NCBI RefSeq assembly: GCF_024449025.1
Contig: NZ_JAHLKM010000004.1
Span: 1 to 64,000 of the forward strand
Origin: Natronomonas aquatica
Lineage (GTDB): Archaea > Halobacteriota > Halobacteria > Halobacteriales > Haloarculaceae
Direction: 5' to 3'
Length of the DNA: 64,000 nucleotides
The notes beneath the pieces are model-generated. The model saw nothing but the letters and a program-made list of their open reading frames with translations. It searched no databases and was not told the DNA's origin. Position numbers and translations under genes: made by a program. The number at the start of each line of letters is the position of its first letter. Position 1 is the stretch's first letter. This document shows positions 39,586 to 47,682 of the stretch, piece by piece.

Positions 39586-39981
39586 TTAAGATTCGTTAAC
39601 CGAGGCGGTGAGCTCTTCGGCGGCTTCGAGATCGAGTTCCTCGACCGAGATGACCGGCAGGAGCTTCTTGAGTTGCCTTTTCACCTGATCGACGCCGGGG
39701 TGAGGTGGTTCGACGACGAACGTGATCCGCGAACGCGTCCCGTCGCCCATCGGCTCGCCGACGATGCGTTCGATGTTGACCTGTCGACGGGCGAACAGCC
39801 CGGTTATCTTGGCGGTCACGCCCGGTTCGTTTTTGACGACCGTCGTCAGCACCGCCCGCCGTTCGTCGGCGTCCCTGTCGGGGGGCGTCTCATCCATGTC
39901 GATCCGCGTCCCGTCGGGGTTCCGCCGGCCCGACGGCTGGGCGCGCTCGTGAGGGCCCGGATATCCGGTTTCACCGCTCAT
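39586..39981 (-). CDS. ilvN: Acetolactate synthase small subunit, short form
   Basis: Regulatory subunit of acetohydroxyacid synthase, which gives feedback control by branched-chain amino acids. Only 131 residues: an acidic N-terminal extension, then one ACT domain, LTTVVKNEPGVTAKITGLFARRQVNIERIV to VKRQLKKLLPVISVEELD (about 43-118). The C-terminal activation domain, present in the roughly 200-residue forms known from other haloarchaea, is absent; the frame ends 13 residues after the ACT domain. E. coli IlvN also consists of just an ACT domain, so it may work. The ATG follows the ilvB stop by one base. Confidence 0.85.
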   Translation of the reverse strand: MSGETGYPGPHERAQPSGRRNPDGTRIDMDETPPDRDADERRAVLTTVVKNEPGVTAKITGLFARRQVNIERIVGEPMGDGTRSRITFVVEPPHPGVDQVKRQLKKLLPVISVEELDLEAAEELTASVNES

Positions 39982-39982
39982 C

Positions 39983-41734
39983 TCACAGTTCCTCCAGTTG
40001 GGCCTCGTTCATCGCGAACTTCGTGTTGTCGCCGCCGCTTGGGACCATCGGGTAGACGTCCTCCTCGGGGTCGACGTGGGCGTCGACGACGGCGGGGCCG
40101 TCGTACTCGTAGGCCGCCCGGAGCGTCTCGTCGACCTCCTCGTAGGTCTCGATCCGGAACCCACGGGCGCCGAACCCCTCCGCGAGGACGTCGAACCCGG
40201 GCACCCACGGGTACTCCGAAGCCATCCGACGGCCTTCGAAGAAGGCGTCCTGCCACTGTCTGACCATCCCGACGGCGGCGTTGTTGAGCACGACGACCGT
40301 GATGTCTAGTTCCTCCCGGACGGCGACGGAGAGTTCCTGTAGCGTCATCAAAAAGGAGCCGTCGCCGTCGAAGCAGACGACCGACTGGTCGTCGTCGGCC
40401 GCAAAGCGGGCGCCGATCGCCGCCGGCAGCCCATAGCCCATCGTCCCCAGCCCGTGCGAGGAGACCCACGTTCGGGGGTGGCGGTACGTCCAGTACTGCA
40501 TCGCCCACATCTGGTGTTGGCCGACGCCGGTCGTGACGACCGTGTCGTCGGGGGTCAGTTCGTCCATCGCCTCCACGAGGAACTGCGGCTTGACCGGTTC
40601 GTCCTCGGAGGCCGAGTACTCCAGCGGGTACTCTTCACGCCACTCCCGGCACTGTTGGCGCCACTCGCCGGCCTCGGGCGCGGCCGGCATCGCGTCGTGG
40701 AGCTGATCCAGCACCGTCCCGGCGTCGCCGACGAGCGGGTAATCGGCGTGGACGATCTTCGAGATCTCGGCGGGATCGATGTCGACGTGGACGATCTCGG
40801 CGTCGGGTGCGAACGTCTCGACGCCGCCGGTCAGCCGGTCGTCGAAGCGCGTCCCGAGGGCCAACATGACGTCACAGTGTTGCAGCGTCATGTTCGCGTA
40901 GCCGGTGCCGTGCATCCCGGCGACCTCCATCGCCAGATCGTGGTCCTCCGGGAACGATCCGATCCCCGGCATCGTCGTGACGACGGGAACCCCGTACTCG
41001 GTCGCGAACGCCCGGAGTTCCTCCCACGCCTCGCCCTTGATGACGCCGCCGCCGGAGAGGATCGCGGGCCGCTCGGCGTCGGCCAGCGCCTCGGCCGCCT
41101 CCGCGACGGTTTCGCCGTCGGCCGCGTCCGGAACGTCGAAACCGTCGGGGAGTTCCGGCCCGACCGGCTCTCCCGCCGAGTCGGCCTTCGTGACGTCCTT
41201 CGGGAGGTCGACCAGCGTCGGTCCCGGTCGCCCCTCCCGGGCGAGCGCGAAGGCCTCACCCACGGTGTGGCCGGTCGTGTCGGGATCGGTGCTCACGTAG
41301 TTCGTCTTCGTCACCGGCATCGTGACGCCCGTGGTATCGGTCTCCTGGAAGGCGTCCCGGCCGAGGAAGTCCGTCGCGACCTGTCCGGTCAGCGCGACCA
41401 TCGGGTCCGAGTCCATGTCGGCGTCGGCGAGCCCCGTCACCAGGTTCGTCGCGCCGGGGCCCGAGGTGGCCAGACAGACGCCGGGGTCGCCGGAGACGAT
41501 CCCGTAGGCGTCGGCCGCGTGGGCGGCGCCCTGCTCGTGGCCCATCGTGACGTGCTGGATGTCGGAGTGATACAGCGCGTCGTAGACGGGCATGATCGCA
41601 CCGCCCTGCAGGCCGAAGGCGTGTTCGACGCCGGCGGCCTCGAGCGCCACGATGGCGGCGTCGGCGCCGGTCGGGGCTGATCGTCCGGGCGATTCGTCGG
41701 TCGGTTCTTCGGGGGCGGTCGTTCGTTTTGACAT
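39983..41734 (-). CDS. ilvB: Acetolactate synthase large subunit
   Basis: ThDP enzyme making 2-acetolactate or 2-aceto-2-hydroxybutyrate, the first shared step of Val, Leu and Ile synthesis. The 583 residues show AFGLQGGAIMPVYDAL, the catalytic Glu in GHEQGAAHAADAYG, TSGPGATNLVTGLADA, the quinone/FAD region GTRFDDRLTG, and the ThDP motif GDGSFLMTLQEL to VVVLNN. The characteristic WQ of acetolactate synthases is in VRQWQDAFFEGRR. The ATG at 41734 is chosen; 94 bases separate it from an upstream leader ORF. Confidence 0.96.
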   Translation of the reverse strand: MSKRTTAPEEPTDESPGRSAPTGADAAIVALEAAGVEHAFGLQGGAIMPVYDALYHSDIQHVTMGHEQGAAHAADAYGIVSGDPGVCLATSGPGATNLVTGLADADMDSDPMVALTGQVATDFLGRDAFQETDTTGVTMPVTKTNYVSTDPDTTGHTVGEAFALAREGRPGPTLVDLPKDVTKADSAGEPVGPELPDGFDVPDAADGETVAEAAEALADAERPAILSGGGVIKGEAWEELRAFATEYGVPVVTTMPGIGSFPEDHDLAMEVAGMHGTGYANMTLQHCDVMLALGTRFDDRLTGGVETFAPDAEIVHVDIDPAEISKIVHADYPLVGDAGTVLDQLHDAMPAAPEAGEWRQQCREWREEYPLEYSASEDEPVKPQFLVEAMDELTPDDTVVTTGVGQHQMWAMQYWTYRHPRTWVSSHGLGTMGYGLPAAIGARFAADDDQSVVCFDGDGSFLMTLQELSVAVREELDITVVVLNNAAVGMVRQWQDAFFEGRRMASEYPWVPGFDVLAEGFGARGFRIETYEEVDETLRAAYEYDGPAVVDAHVDPEEDVYPMVPSGGDNTKFAMNEAQLEEL

Positions 41735-41754
41735 CCGTCTGTGGTGTCCGTGGC

Positions 41755-41774
41755 GTCGCCGGAACACCGGCGAC
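41755..41774 (-). promoter_or_regulatory. Second hairpin of the ilv leader, just before ilvB
   Basis: GTCGCCGG-TGTT-CCGGCGAC on the minus strand: a perfect 8-bp GC-rich stem with 4-base loop, ending 20 bases before the ilvB ATG. No T-run follows. It may be a pause or translation-control structure, or part of an attenuator with the hairpin at 41825-41843. Confidence 0.5.
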
Positions 41775-41824
41775 AGGGTTAGTTATCGAGCGTTTCGAGC
41801 CGGATCGAAAAGTAGTGTTTTGGT

Positions 41825-41843
41825 GGGGCTACTGGGGAGCCCC
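41825..41843 (-). promoter_or_regulatory. Candidate attenuator hairpin over the end of the ilv leader ORF
   Basis: GGGGCT-CCCCAGT-AGCCCC on the minus strand: a 6-bp stem that begins right after the last two Ile codons and contains the stop codon of the leader ORF. About 14 bases later comes a short T-run (TTTT, 41808-41811). A ribosome held at the Ile codons would cover its left arm. Confidence 0.5.
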
Positions 41844-41933
41844 AATAATACCGATGATACCGATGATACCGGTAGCGCTATCGGAGATACCGCTGGTGAC
41901 GAGGGTGGACTCGGGTGCGGTACTCCGCGTCAT
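41829..41933 (-). CDS. Leader peptide of the ilvBN operon (Ile-rich)
   Basis: A 34-codon ORF starting with ATG at 41933: it begins MTRSTAPESTLVTSG and ends TGIIGIIGIIGAPQ before TAG. It holds one Leu, one Val and seven Ile, six of them in three Ile-Ile pairs (ATC ATC, ATC ATC, ATT ATT), right before a hairpin. Leader peptides with runs of the regulated amino acids control ilv operons in bacteria by attenuation. A TATA-like box lies 28-34 bases upstream, giving a leaderless start. The Ile run comes from a nine-base repeat, so chance cannot be excluded. Expression is not shown. Confidence 0.6.
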   Translation of the reverse strand: MTRSTAPESTLVTSGISDSATGIIGIIGIIGAPQ

Positions 41934-41960
41934 GTAGTTGAAACAAGTGTCATCTATGCT

Positions 41961-41967
41961 TATTAAA
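41961..41967 (-). promoter_or_regulatory. TATA-like box of the ilv leader and operon
   Basis: TTTAATA on the minus strand in AGTTTAATAAGC, 28-34 bases before the leader ATG. Transcription would begin only a few bases before that ATG, so the leader ORF would be the first thing translated from the ilvBN mRNA. The rest of 41968-42145 holds no gene that I can support; rpl15e starts at 42146 on the other strand. Confidence 0.55.
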
Positions 41968-42145
41968 CTTACTGTCGGGCTCGATCGTCGATCCGCCGTT
42001 CGCGGCGTTTCGAAGCGCTTAACCGCGGTTGTCGTGAAAACCGTCACAACTCGCTGGACGACGGGCACCAGCGGGCGCCTGTCCACACAGGTCGGGATGT
42101 GATTCCCACCCGGGAATTGAACCACACAACGCCCGTGGTGAAACC

Positions 42146-42736
42146 ATGGCACGAAGCTTCTACTCACACATCCGGGAGGCGTGGAAGACGCCGAAGGAAG
42201 GAAAGCTCGCGGAACTGCAGTGGCAGCGCCAACAGGAGTGGCGCGACCAGGGATCGATCGAGCGCATCGAGCGCCCGACGCGGCTGGATAAGGCGCGCTC
42301 GCTCGGCTACAAAGCCAAGCAGGGCGTCGTCGTCGCTCGCGTCTCGATCCGGAAAGGCAGCGCCCGCAAACAGCGGTTCAAGGCCGGCCGCCGCTCGAAG
42401 CGGCAGGGTGTCAACAAGATCACCCGCCGGAAGAACCTCCAGCGCATCGCCGAAGAGCGCGCCGGACGGAAGTTCCGGAACCTCCGCGTTCTGAACAGCT
42501 ACTGGGTCGGCGAGGACGGCTCCCAGAAGTGGTTCGAAGTGATCCTCCTGGATCCCGAACACGGGGCGATCGAAAACGACGACGATCTGGGCTGGATCTG
42601 TGCGGACAGCCAGCGGGGCCGCGCCTACCGGGGCCGGACCTCCGCCGGCCAGCGCGGTCGGGGGCTCCAGCAACGCGGCAAGGGAACCGAACACACCCGT
42701 CCGAGCGTCCGCGCGAACGACAACCGCGGCAAGTAA
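42146..42736 (+). CDS. rpl15e: 50S ribosomal protein eL15
   Basis: Large-subunit protein of Archaea and eukaryotes. The 196 residues start MARSFYSHIREAWK and carry the strongly conserved parts DKARSLGYKAKQGVVVARVSIRKG, RFKAGRRSKRQGVNKITRRKNLQRIAEER and RKFRNLRVLNSYWVGEDGSQKWFEVILLDPEH, ending in a basic tail. Length and start fit the family. Divergent from the ilv leader, with about 210 bases between. Confidence 0.98.
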   Translation: MARSFYSHIREAWKTPKEGKLAELQWQRQQEWRDQGSIERIERPTRLDKARSLGYKAKQGVVVARVSIRKGSARKQRFKAGRRSKRQGVNKITRRKNLQRIAEERAGRKFRNLRVLNSYWVGEDGSQKWFEVILLDPEHGAIENDDDLGWICADSQRGRAYRGRTSAGQRGRGLQQRGKGTEHTRPSVRANDNRGK

Positions 42737-46038: not shown

Positions 46039-47682
46039 GTGAACGTCAACGAAGCGATCATCGACTGTTTGACCGAGAACGGTATCGATGCCCTGTTCGG
46101 CATTCCGGGCAAGCAGTCGCTCCCGCTGAACGAGGCGATCAGCGAGCGAGACGACATCCGGTTCGTCGTGGCGCGCCACGAGACCGCCGTCTCACATCAG
46201 GCGTGGGGGTACGCCGAAACCAGCGGCGGGATGGCCGGGACGGTCGTCATCCCCGGTCCGGGCGATATGAACGCGATGAACGGGCTCAAGAACGCGTTGA
46301 ACGACTGTACCCCGCTTCTCCACGTCGCCGTCGAGACCGAACCGGAGATCCGCGGCGGCGACGGGATCCACGAGACGCCGCCGGACACCTACGACAACGT
46401 CGTCAAGGAGAACATCACCGTCGAGACGCCACAGAGTACGGTCGCGGAACTCCAGCGGGCGATCGACGCCGCGAGGACCCCCCCGAAGGGGCCGGTTCGG
46501 ATCGGCATCCCGAAGAACTTCCTCTCGATGGACGTCGAACTCGCCGAGCGCGGCGAGACCGACCCGCCGTCGGTCGGCGGCGTTCCCGAGACGAAAGTAG
46601 AGGCGGCGGCGACGCTTCTCGCCGGGGCGTCGAAGCCGATCATCGTCGCCGGCGGCGGGGTGCGGGCCGCCGACGCGAGCGATGAACTGCGGGCCGTCGC
46701 CGAACGGCTCGAGGCGCCGGTCGTCCCCACGTACAAAGGCAAAGCCGTCTTTCCCGACGAACACGAACTCATGGGAGGTGTACTCTGTGGCGGGGCCGGG
46801 CGCCCCACGAAGGAACTGATCGCCGACGCCGACGCGGCGCTGGGGGTCGGCACCGACTTCGACGCGGTCAGCTTCCGCCACTGGTCGATCGAGATCCCCG
46901 AGGATCTGGTACACGTCACGCTCGCGGCCGACGACATCGGCACCGGCTACGATCCGGCCGTCGGGATCGTCGCCGACGCGGCCCGGACGCTCGATGCGCT
47001 CGATGCCGCCTTGGCCGAACGGTCGATCGCGAGCGAGACCGGCCCCGAGCGCGCCGCCGATACGCGGGAAGCGATAGACAGCCGGCTCGCGGAACTGCGG
47101 GACGTGACCGAACCGCCGCTGACCTCGGTCGCGGCGCTGGATGCGATCCGGGAGGCCACGCCCCGGGACGCGGTCGTGAGCCCGGACGCGGGCGGGTTCC
47201 GGCTGTGGGCGCTGGTGTCGTTTCCGGCGTACGAACCCCGCGATTGGGTCACGCCGGGATCGTGGGCGACGATGGGATCGGGCGTGCCGGGCGCCATCGG
47301 GGCGAAACTGGCCAACCCCGACCAGGACGTCGTGGCACTCACCGGCGACGGGGGGCTGTTGATGTGTCTTCACGAACTGCACACTCTGGCACACGAGGCG
47401 ATCGACGTGACTGTTGTCGTCCTCGACAACAGCGACTACGCGATCATCAGCGAGGAGGCCGGCCGGAGCTACCGGATGGACGACGGCGAGTACGGCTGGG
47501 GAGAGACTCCCGTCTCGTATACGACCGTCGCCGAGGGTCTCGGCCTCGACGTCGAGCGGGCCGAAACCCCCGACGAAATCGAGACGACCGTCGCCGACGC
47601 GATCGAAAGCGACGGGGCGACGCTCGTCGAGATCCCCACCGATCCCTACGAGCCACAGTCCGGCGTCTGGATGAACGAGTGA
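46039..47682 (+). CDS. Acetolactate synthase-like ThDP-dependent enzyme
   Basis: A 547-residue ThDP enzyme of the IlvB/benzoylformate decarboxylase family. The N-terminal part GIDALFGIPGKQSLPLNEAI, the catalytic Glu in RHETAVSHQAWGYAE, the central nucleotide-like domain and the ThDP motif GDGGLLMCLHELHTLA to VVVLDN are all intact. It lacks the WQ motif of true acetolactate synthases, so a decarboxylase or ligase acting on another 2-oxoacid is likely. The start is GTG at 46039. The gene converges with an HpcH/HpaI aldolase, another 2-oxoacid enzyme. Confidence 0.88.
   Translation: MNVNEAIIDCLTENGIDALFGIPGKQSLPLNEAISERDDIRFVVARHETAVSHQAWGYAETSGGMAGTVVIPGPGDMNAMNGLKNALNDCTPLLHVAVETEPEIRGGDGIHETPPDTYDNVVKENITVETPQSTVAELQRAIDAARTPPKGPVRIGIPKNFLSMDVELAERGETDPPSVGGVPETKVEAAATLLAGASKPIIVAGGGVRAADASDELRAVAERLEAPVVPTYKGKAVFPDEHELMGGVLCGGAGRPTKELIADADAALGVGTDFDAVSFRHWSIEIPEDLVHVTLAADDIGTGYDPAVGIVADAARTLDALDAALAERSIASETGPERAADTREAIDSRLAELRDVTEPPLTSVAALDAIREATPRDAVVSPDAGGFRLWALVSFPAYEPRDWVTPGSWATMGSGVPGAIGAKLANPDQDVVALTGDGGLLMCLHELHTLAHEAIDVTVVVLDNSDYAIISEEAGRSYRMDDGEYGWGETPVSYTTVAEGLGLDVERAETPDEIETTVADAIESDGATLVEIPTDPYEPQSGVWMNE

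Follow-up and report, generated by a model that had tools for sequence, protein, structure and literature searches.

A short, isoleucine-rich open reading frame (ORF) upstream of ilvB in the haloarchaeon Natronomonas aquatica raises the question of whether an archaeon can regulate amino acid genes through a translated leader peptide. Ribosome-driven attenuation is a textbook bacterial mechanism that demands tight coupling of transcription and translation. The preliminary description of this locus, which proposed that the bacterial logic applies here, held that attenuation by a leader peptide was not established in Archaea, and we found no prior report of an archaeal case in the open literature; subscription papers and the two main haloarchaeal ribosome-profiling papers were outside the scope of this search, and the priority of an archaeal case cannot be certified. 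Attenuator logic itself is already known from bacteria, and what is new is the domain, the leaderless start, the anatomy of hairpin and terminator and the involvement of several gene families.

The window, by which we mean the whole 64,000-nucleotide stretch of N. aquatica DNA that was analysed, carries the locus on its minus strand. The large subunit of acetolactate synthase is encoded by ilvB (39983-41734; TIGR00118, 1.9e-205), with an ilvN-like gene for the ACT-domain small subunit (39586-39981) directly downstream, and the gene was thus correctly identified at the outset. Upstream of ilvB, a scan places the start of a TATA-like box, TTTAATAA (41960-41967), 33 nt from the ATG of a leader ORF (41829-41933) that encodes the 34 residues MTRSTAPESTLVTSGISDSATGIIGIIGIIGAPQ and a stop codon, as first described. 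The spacing predicts a leaderless transcript beginning at or beside this ATG. Towards its end the ORF contains the putative regulatory codons ATC ATC GGT ATC ATC GGT ATT ATT (six Ile, 41844-41867), so that both the three Ile-Ile pairs and their origin in a 9-base repeat hold true. A hairpin had been placed at 41825-41843, holding the stop codon and followed by a T-run; the stop codon and a TTTT are indeed there, and the hairpin is slightly larger, with the sequence TGGGGCT-CCCCAGT-AGCCCCA (41824-41844) forming a 7-bp stem between 41844-41838 and 41830-41824 (-11.7 kcal/mol, z -2.2). The leader TAG (41831-41829) straddles its loop and 3' arm. On the 3' side follows a G-free, pyrimidine- and A-rich tract (41807-41828, TTTT at 41811-41808) that is G-poor in aligned relatives and may serve as an archaeal T-tract terminator or as a site of factor access, its function being inferred. 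The second hairpin reported just before ilvB, GTCGCCGG TGTT CCGGCGAC (41755-41774), is likewise real: it has a perfect 8-bp stem, scores z -3.9 and lies about 20 nt before the gene.

The window gene, which is 86% identical to ilvB of a Natronomonas isolate, is one of two ilvB copies in its genome; the other (G000:C39:151079-152779) is 69% identical to it. The window copy is a paralogue also present at two further loci, L088 and L090, both of which have a GC hairpin of different sequence near the position of the second window hairpin. The main copy of the same genome is preceded by a class-typical element (G000:C39:152914-152957, locus L002) in which the key Ile codon is ATG (Met), the peptide ending ...SGMVGA. 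When the window leader is aligned with those of relatives, its last ATT ATT falls opposite ATT GTA (Ile-Val) in most of them. The triple Ile-Ile expansion is peculiar to the window copy, and the conserved core consists only of the last Ile-Ile or Ile-Val pair and the hairpin.

Relatives that keep ilvB without a small ORF bearing branched-chain codons would have refuted the original proposal. Nearly all have one: a counterpart of the leader, with a peptide ending in I(I/V)G, is kept in 98 of 100 ilvB loci. The typical end, ...(I/R/G)IVGA(x) before the stop codon, is found upstream of nearly all of the roughly 100 haloarchaeal ilvB genes, and its DNA reads T-ATT-GTA-GGGG-C, then a stop codon, then CCCC a few bases on, after which G is almost absent for 20 nt; the window family has ATT in place of GTA (Ile-Ile). 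A covariance model built from the ilvB leader element, R1, matches 142 of 145 genomes and 55 of 58 genera of the class Halobacteria. Elsewhere in the phylum R1 found only weak, scattered sites, which we take as chance, and we regard the element as confined to the class. The stop hairpin of ilvB and valS leaders shows compensatory changes (GGGGC/GCCCC to GGGGT/ACCCC, GGGC/GCCC and others), among them GGGGTT/AACCCC at L088 against GGGGCT/AGCCCC in the window. A search of six genomes for the pattern GGGGCN(1-4)TAGCCCC returned essentially those of ilvB and valS, with isolated matches elsewhere.

To ask whether the ORF frame is itself maintained, we took the best TATA box of each locus and then the first ATG 22-48 nt on, so that the start was chosen blind to frame. 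The start so chosen shares its frame with the Ile/Val codons in 87 of 91 ilvB loci, against an expectation of one third. The distance from TATA box to ATG is mostly 30-33 nt, which on sequence grounds has the appearance of a leaderless mRNA, and the leaders are 13-50 codons long. The majority of Haloferax volcanii mRNAs are leaderless (PMC4983044). In a close group of relatives all gaps within the leader ORF are multiples of three, and the stop codon is TAG, TAA or TGA, 3-8 codons past the key codon. Evolution in the 5' half of the leader is unlike that of an ordinary protein, with no excess of synonymous changes and an entropy by codon position of 0.61/0.69/0.61; in trpS and pheS leaders (see below) this half codes for an RNA arm, which is also the case in bacterial leaders. 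Constraint in the ilvB leader thus seems limited to its frame, last codons and arms. Chance together with the 9-base repeat, named in the preliminary description as the main alternative, is rejected as the sole explanation by this class-wide conservation and by the leaders of other gene families.

Half of the genomes carry a second R1 match, and 19 of the 20 that were fetched sit upstream of valS. The leaders matched in this way (valS-hp) mostly end in (T/A)VFVGA or VVVGA before the stop codon, with Val and no Ile. A second valS design (valS-I), present also in the window's own genome, is an unrelated mini-leader such as MRVGSTVVRV or MSATRSVVRGL with the codons GTA GTA. Within the class, distinct groups of valS loci (L185-L213) each have their own leader design, and in the Haloferacales valS loci scanned no leader was recognised and valS itself is leaderless. 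We examined pheS and trpS because a dRNA-seq start-site map of H. volcanii lists upstream ORFs of 26 aa and 23 aa, respectively, in long 5' UTRs before both genes (PMC4983044, Table 2). The trpS upstream ORF is reported there as 23 aa and 2743 Da, with no sequence in the table; the trpS leaders of Haloferax mediterranei and H. larsenii, unannotated in the records shown, are 23 aa with masses of 2703 and 2728 Da. Leaders of pheS read ...GFGFFF(A)R before the stop codon, although several pheS loci have no recognised leader and not every lineage has every leader. The leaders of a second trpS read ...WRWR or WRWW..., with WRW/WRWW in 29 of 30 loci. As with ilvB, the valS, pheS and trpS leaders are short ORFs that have a start and a stop of their own and lie between promoter and gene. 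This leader-bearing trpS is a second copy that occurs in 35 of 126 genomes, often on megaplasmids (L385-L388, L355-L384), and among the loci scanned the usual trpS has no Trp-rich leader.

The match between codons and gene was then assessed under one rule common to all families, namely an ATG with a TATA box 28-35 nt before it opening an ORF of 6-50 codons within 450 nt, which is stricter than the survey by hand and gives lower counts. The resulting matrix of gene family against amino acid is essentially diagonal: W.W occurs in 10 trpS loci, FFF in 11 pheS loci and terminal I(I/V)G in 89 ilvB loci, each of them nowhere else. Under the same rule ORFs of this kind are almost absent before ileS and leuS, and no cognate run occurs among them; a general role in front of every tRNA synthetase gene is rejected, ileS and leuS being leaderless and without a leader. 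No Trp-rich leader was found before trpE within the loci fetched, where trpE may not be first in its operon. The Ile and Val codons of the leaders are rare ones. GTA makes up 0.6% of Val codons in ilvB as against 37% in ilvB leaders and 38% and 58% in the two valS designs, and ATT makes up 7% of Ile codons in ilvB as against 72% in the leaders. Conservation of GTA may be partly structural, since it lies inside an RNA stem. The pheS and trpS leaders of this codon survey had been chosen for their F or W content, and the unbiased test is the common-rule matrix.

In trpS and pheS leaders, covarying hairpins enclose the putative regulatory codons or end on them. In essentially all 29 trpS leaders two arms of 8-13 bp flank the Trp codons, for example GTCCGCTCCC/GGGAGCGGAC, TCCACTTCCC/GGGAAGTGGA and TGTCCGCTGGCG/CGCCAGCGGACA; in a few an arm extends into the Trp codon that opens or closes the run. 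In pheS leaders the first Phe codon is paired to an arm that follows the start codon (CCGAATCCC/GGGATTCGG, CCGAACCC/GGGTTCGG). When whole arms were shuffled among species, as many double changes arose in 0 of 10000 trials for trpS and 17 of 10000 for pheS, without correction for relatedness, and RNAalifold recovered the trpS stem unaided. The 1:2 pairing is well supported in both families; a 2:3 pairing, in which arm 2 would join an arm 3 farther downstream, is possible by eye only and was not recovered by RNAalifold. In folding of the window leader the hairpin forms when nothing is blocked and is lost when the stretch of Ile codons or that of the stop codon is blocked. Overall, the hairpins covary and extend over the regulatory and stop codons, and their dependence on ribosome position is inferred.

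Downstream of the leaders, T-rich motifs are enriched in some families. TTTT and TTCTC are enriched after ilvB leaders, where TTTT follows 32 of 96 (7 expected); TTCTC follows 8 of 9 valS-I leaders (0.3 expected) and 16 of 29 trpS leaders (2.6 expected). No enrichment of T-tracts was seen after pheS or valS-hp leaders. The T-tract lies about 13 nt past the hairpin, unlike that of a bacterial intrinsic terminator. Both T-stretches and hairpins have been reported near H. volcanii termination sites (PMC7237163), and the factor FttA has been proposed to act as a check on uncoupled archaeal transcription (PMC11616081; PMC12548453).

Taken together, we hold it to be probable that the window element works in its archaeal host as a ribosome-mediated leader-peptide attenuator. 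Comparison of loci, which is evidence from sequence alone, indicates a conserved TATA-phased ORF, a match between codons and gene, and hairpins with compensatory changes, and places the window copy in a class-wide set of putative leaders before ilvB, valS, pheS and trpS whose codons correspond to the amino acid made or charged; translation of the leader, ribosome stalling and a response to amino acids are inferred. The strongest support for attenuation of the bacterial type is that valS, pheS and trpS leaders hold Val, Phe and Trp codons, a result unforeseen when the proposal was made. In the proposed mechanism, RNA would start at or beside the leader ATG as a leaderless mRNA, and the first ribosome would trail RNA polymerase along the short leader. 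When charged Ile-tRNA, and in most relatives Val-tRNA too, is scarce, the ribosome would stall on the Ile/Val codons before the GGGGC arm (at ATT ATT in the window) and cover this arm, the stop-codon hairpin could not form, and ilvBN expression would continue. When charged tRNA is plentiful, the ribosome would reach the stop codon and leave, allowing the hairpin to form ahead of the G-free, T-containing tract, and transcription would end early at the T-tract or through the archaeal factor FttA/aCPSF1. A free hairpin and tract would thus lower expression, and stalling would relieve this. We prefer transcription termination over translation of the downstream gene as the output, and this is the least certain step. 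H. volcanii ilvB1 mutants require Ile, Leu and Val (PMC4300041). With less assurance, we favour on balance the wider claim that haloarchaea possess a regulon of amino-acid-specific attenuators (ilvB, two designs for valS, pheS and trpS) that would have evolved independently of the bacterial ones, act on leaderless mRNAs, use termination at T-tracts or by FttA, and be the first in Archaea.

Many ilvB loci have a second conserved mini-ORF between the leader hairpin and the gene (loci L010-L107 and others). It is about 14-45 codons long and often reads MYTRDTNRRYR... or MTHYRTPxDRxxxAGGNR; an example is MHTRDTNRRYRATNDDAERTEGRR followed by a stop codon at L107.

Control by charged tRNA need not act on transcription. 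The ribosome's position on the leader could instead alter the mRNA fold or coupling and hence affect initiation, whether at the second mini-ORF or at the gene, with no premature termination of transcription. An ATG-started second mini-ORF whose TGA overlaps the ilvB ATG is present in 87 of 100 ilvB loci, an overlap that likely represents translational coupling, and such overlaps are known to couple translation in H. volcanii (PMC12548453); the lack of T-tract enrichment after pheS and valS-hp leaders fits such control as well. We nonetheless consider it unlikely, though still a serious competitor, given the enrichment of T-tracts after ilvB, valS-I and trpS leaders, the absence of the second mini-ORF from the window copy and the distance of the hairpins from the gene start in many loci.

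A different sensor could also be imagined, in which the conserved peptide end (IVGA, VFVGA or VVR) itself arrests the ribosome on a free amino acid. TnaC arrests the ribosome in this manner in response to tryptophan. The peptide end is indeed strongly conserved beside the stop codon, but its conserved GA is read from the GGGGC arm of the hairpin and finds its explanation in the RNA, the unrelated valS designs have only Val codons in common, and the gene families differ in sequence save for the cognate amino acid; we judge a nascent-peptide sensor very improbable.

No more credit can be given to the idea that a DNA operator or a protein-binding RNA hairpin (ATTGTAGGGGC...GCCCC) controls ilvB and valS, with the mini-ORF as a by-product. 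Its appeal lies in the high nucleotide conservation of ATTGTAGGGGC, which includes the third-position T before ATT. Against it stand an ATG that is placed by the TATA box and in phase at 87 of 91 loci, a stop codon that shifts in identity and position yet always closes the frame, and the entirely different hairpins of pheS, trpS and valS-I, which nevertheless come with cognate codons. The spacing between the arms of the stop hairpin varies from 4 to 13 nt, which argues for RNA and against a DNA operator. A trans-acting microprotein as the mini-ORF product is barely conceivable: bacterial leader peptides can gain trans roles, as is reported for peTrpL (PMC7298713), but the haloarchaeal sequences are variable beyond cognate codons and arm-encoded residues, and equally so at all codon positions.

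How does the preferred reading, leader-peptide attenuation, compare with known systems? In E. coli trpL, ilvL and pheL, cognate codons lie inside or beside a hairpin, and the other arm is freed upon ribosome stalling. The placement of Trp codons between arm 1 and arm 2 of the haloarchaeal trpS leaders resembles this arrangement, whereas for haloarchaea there are only hints of counterparts to the E. coli 2:3 antiterminator and 3:4 terminator. With respect to targets, our comparison suggests that the closest bacterial leader-peptide attenuators are those of Actinobacteria (ilvB, trpS and leuS, PMC1262725), together with Corynebacterium ilvBNC (PMC11857589, PMC10272879). They too have a short ORF, cognate runs overlapping a hairpin and U-tracts, and they too stand before ilvB and before a tRNA synthetase gene. 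However, the bacterial leaders have poly-U terminators, whereas in haloarchaea the T-tract is set off from the hairpin or absent, and the haloarchaeal leader ORFs differ from the actinobacterial ones in appearing leaderless behind a TATA box and in having no Rfam match. In Streptomyces coelicolor, altering the candidate regulatory codons of a similar-looking ilvB leader gave no response (PMC1262725), a fair warning for our reading of haloarchaeal ilvB. T-box riboswitches of Gram-positive aminoacyl-tRNA synthetase and amino acid genes share the target class and the signal, uncharged tRNA, but T-box RNA itself captures tRNA and does not depend on translation of a leader, unlike the proposed haloarchaeal leaders. 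Neither the window leader nor the leaders at eight ilvB loci gave a T-box match to Rfam covariance models, and the Rfam ilv, leu, phe and trp leader families gave no match at E <= 1 in the window or E <= 0.5 in the eight loci. The upstream ORFs mapped in long 5' UTRs before H. volcanii trpS and pheS are like the leaders described here; in the portion of that article available, no attenuation role is proposed and ilvB and valS are unlisted (PMC4983044, Table 2).

If the cognate leaders at four gene families act as proposed, archaeal ribosomes would trail RNA polymerase closely enough to regulate it, and haloarchaeal control of these synthetases without T-boxes would be explained. Haloferax would then offer a genetically tractable system for studying coupling and FttA-dependent termination in vivo, and attenuator leaders may account for the two upstream ORFs already mapped in H. 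volcanii.

Several minor observations concern acetolactate synthase-like sequences and the neighbourhood of the leader. A thiamine-pyrophosphate enzyme of the acetolactate synthase superfamily, 32% identical to IlvB, is encoded at 46051-47652 on the plus strand, about 4 kb from the ilvB leader. Elsewhere in the genome, G000:C82:92823-92990 (L007) matches the first 56 residues of window IlvB at 50% identity within an 86-residue open frame, and is either an isolated N-terminal IlvB fragment or a chance match. Finally, rpl15e (42146-42736, plus strand) is divergent from ilvB, so that the two promoter regions stand back to back, and an eL15-Euryarchaeota ribosomal protein leader (Rfam RF03144, E 1.3e-6) lies directly upstream of it at 42078-42128 on the plus strand.
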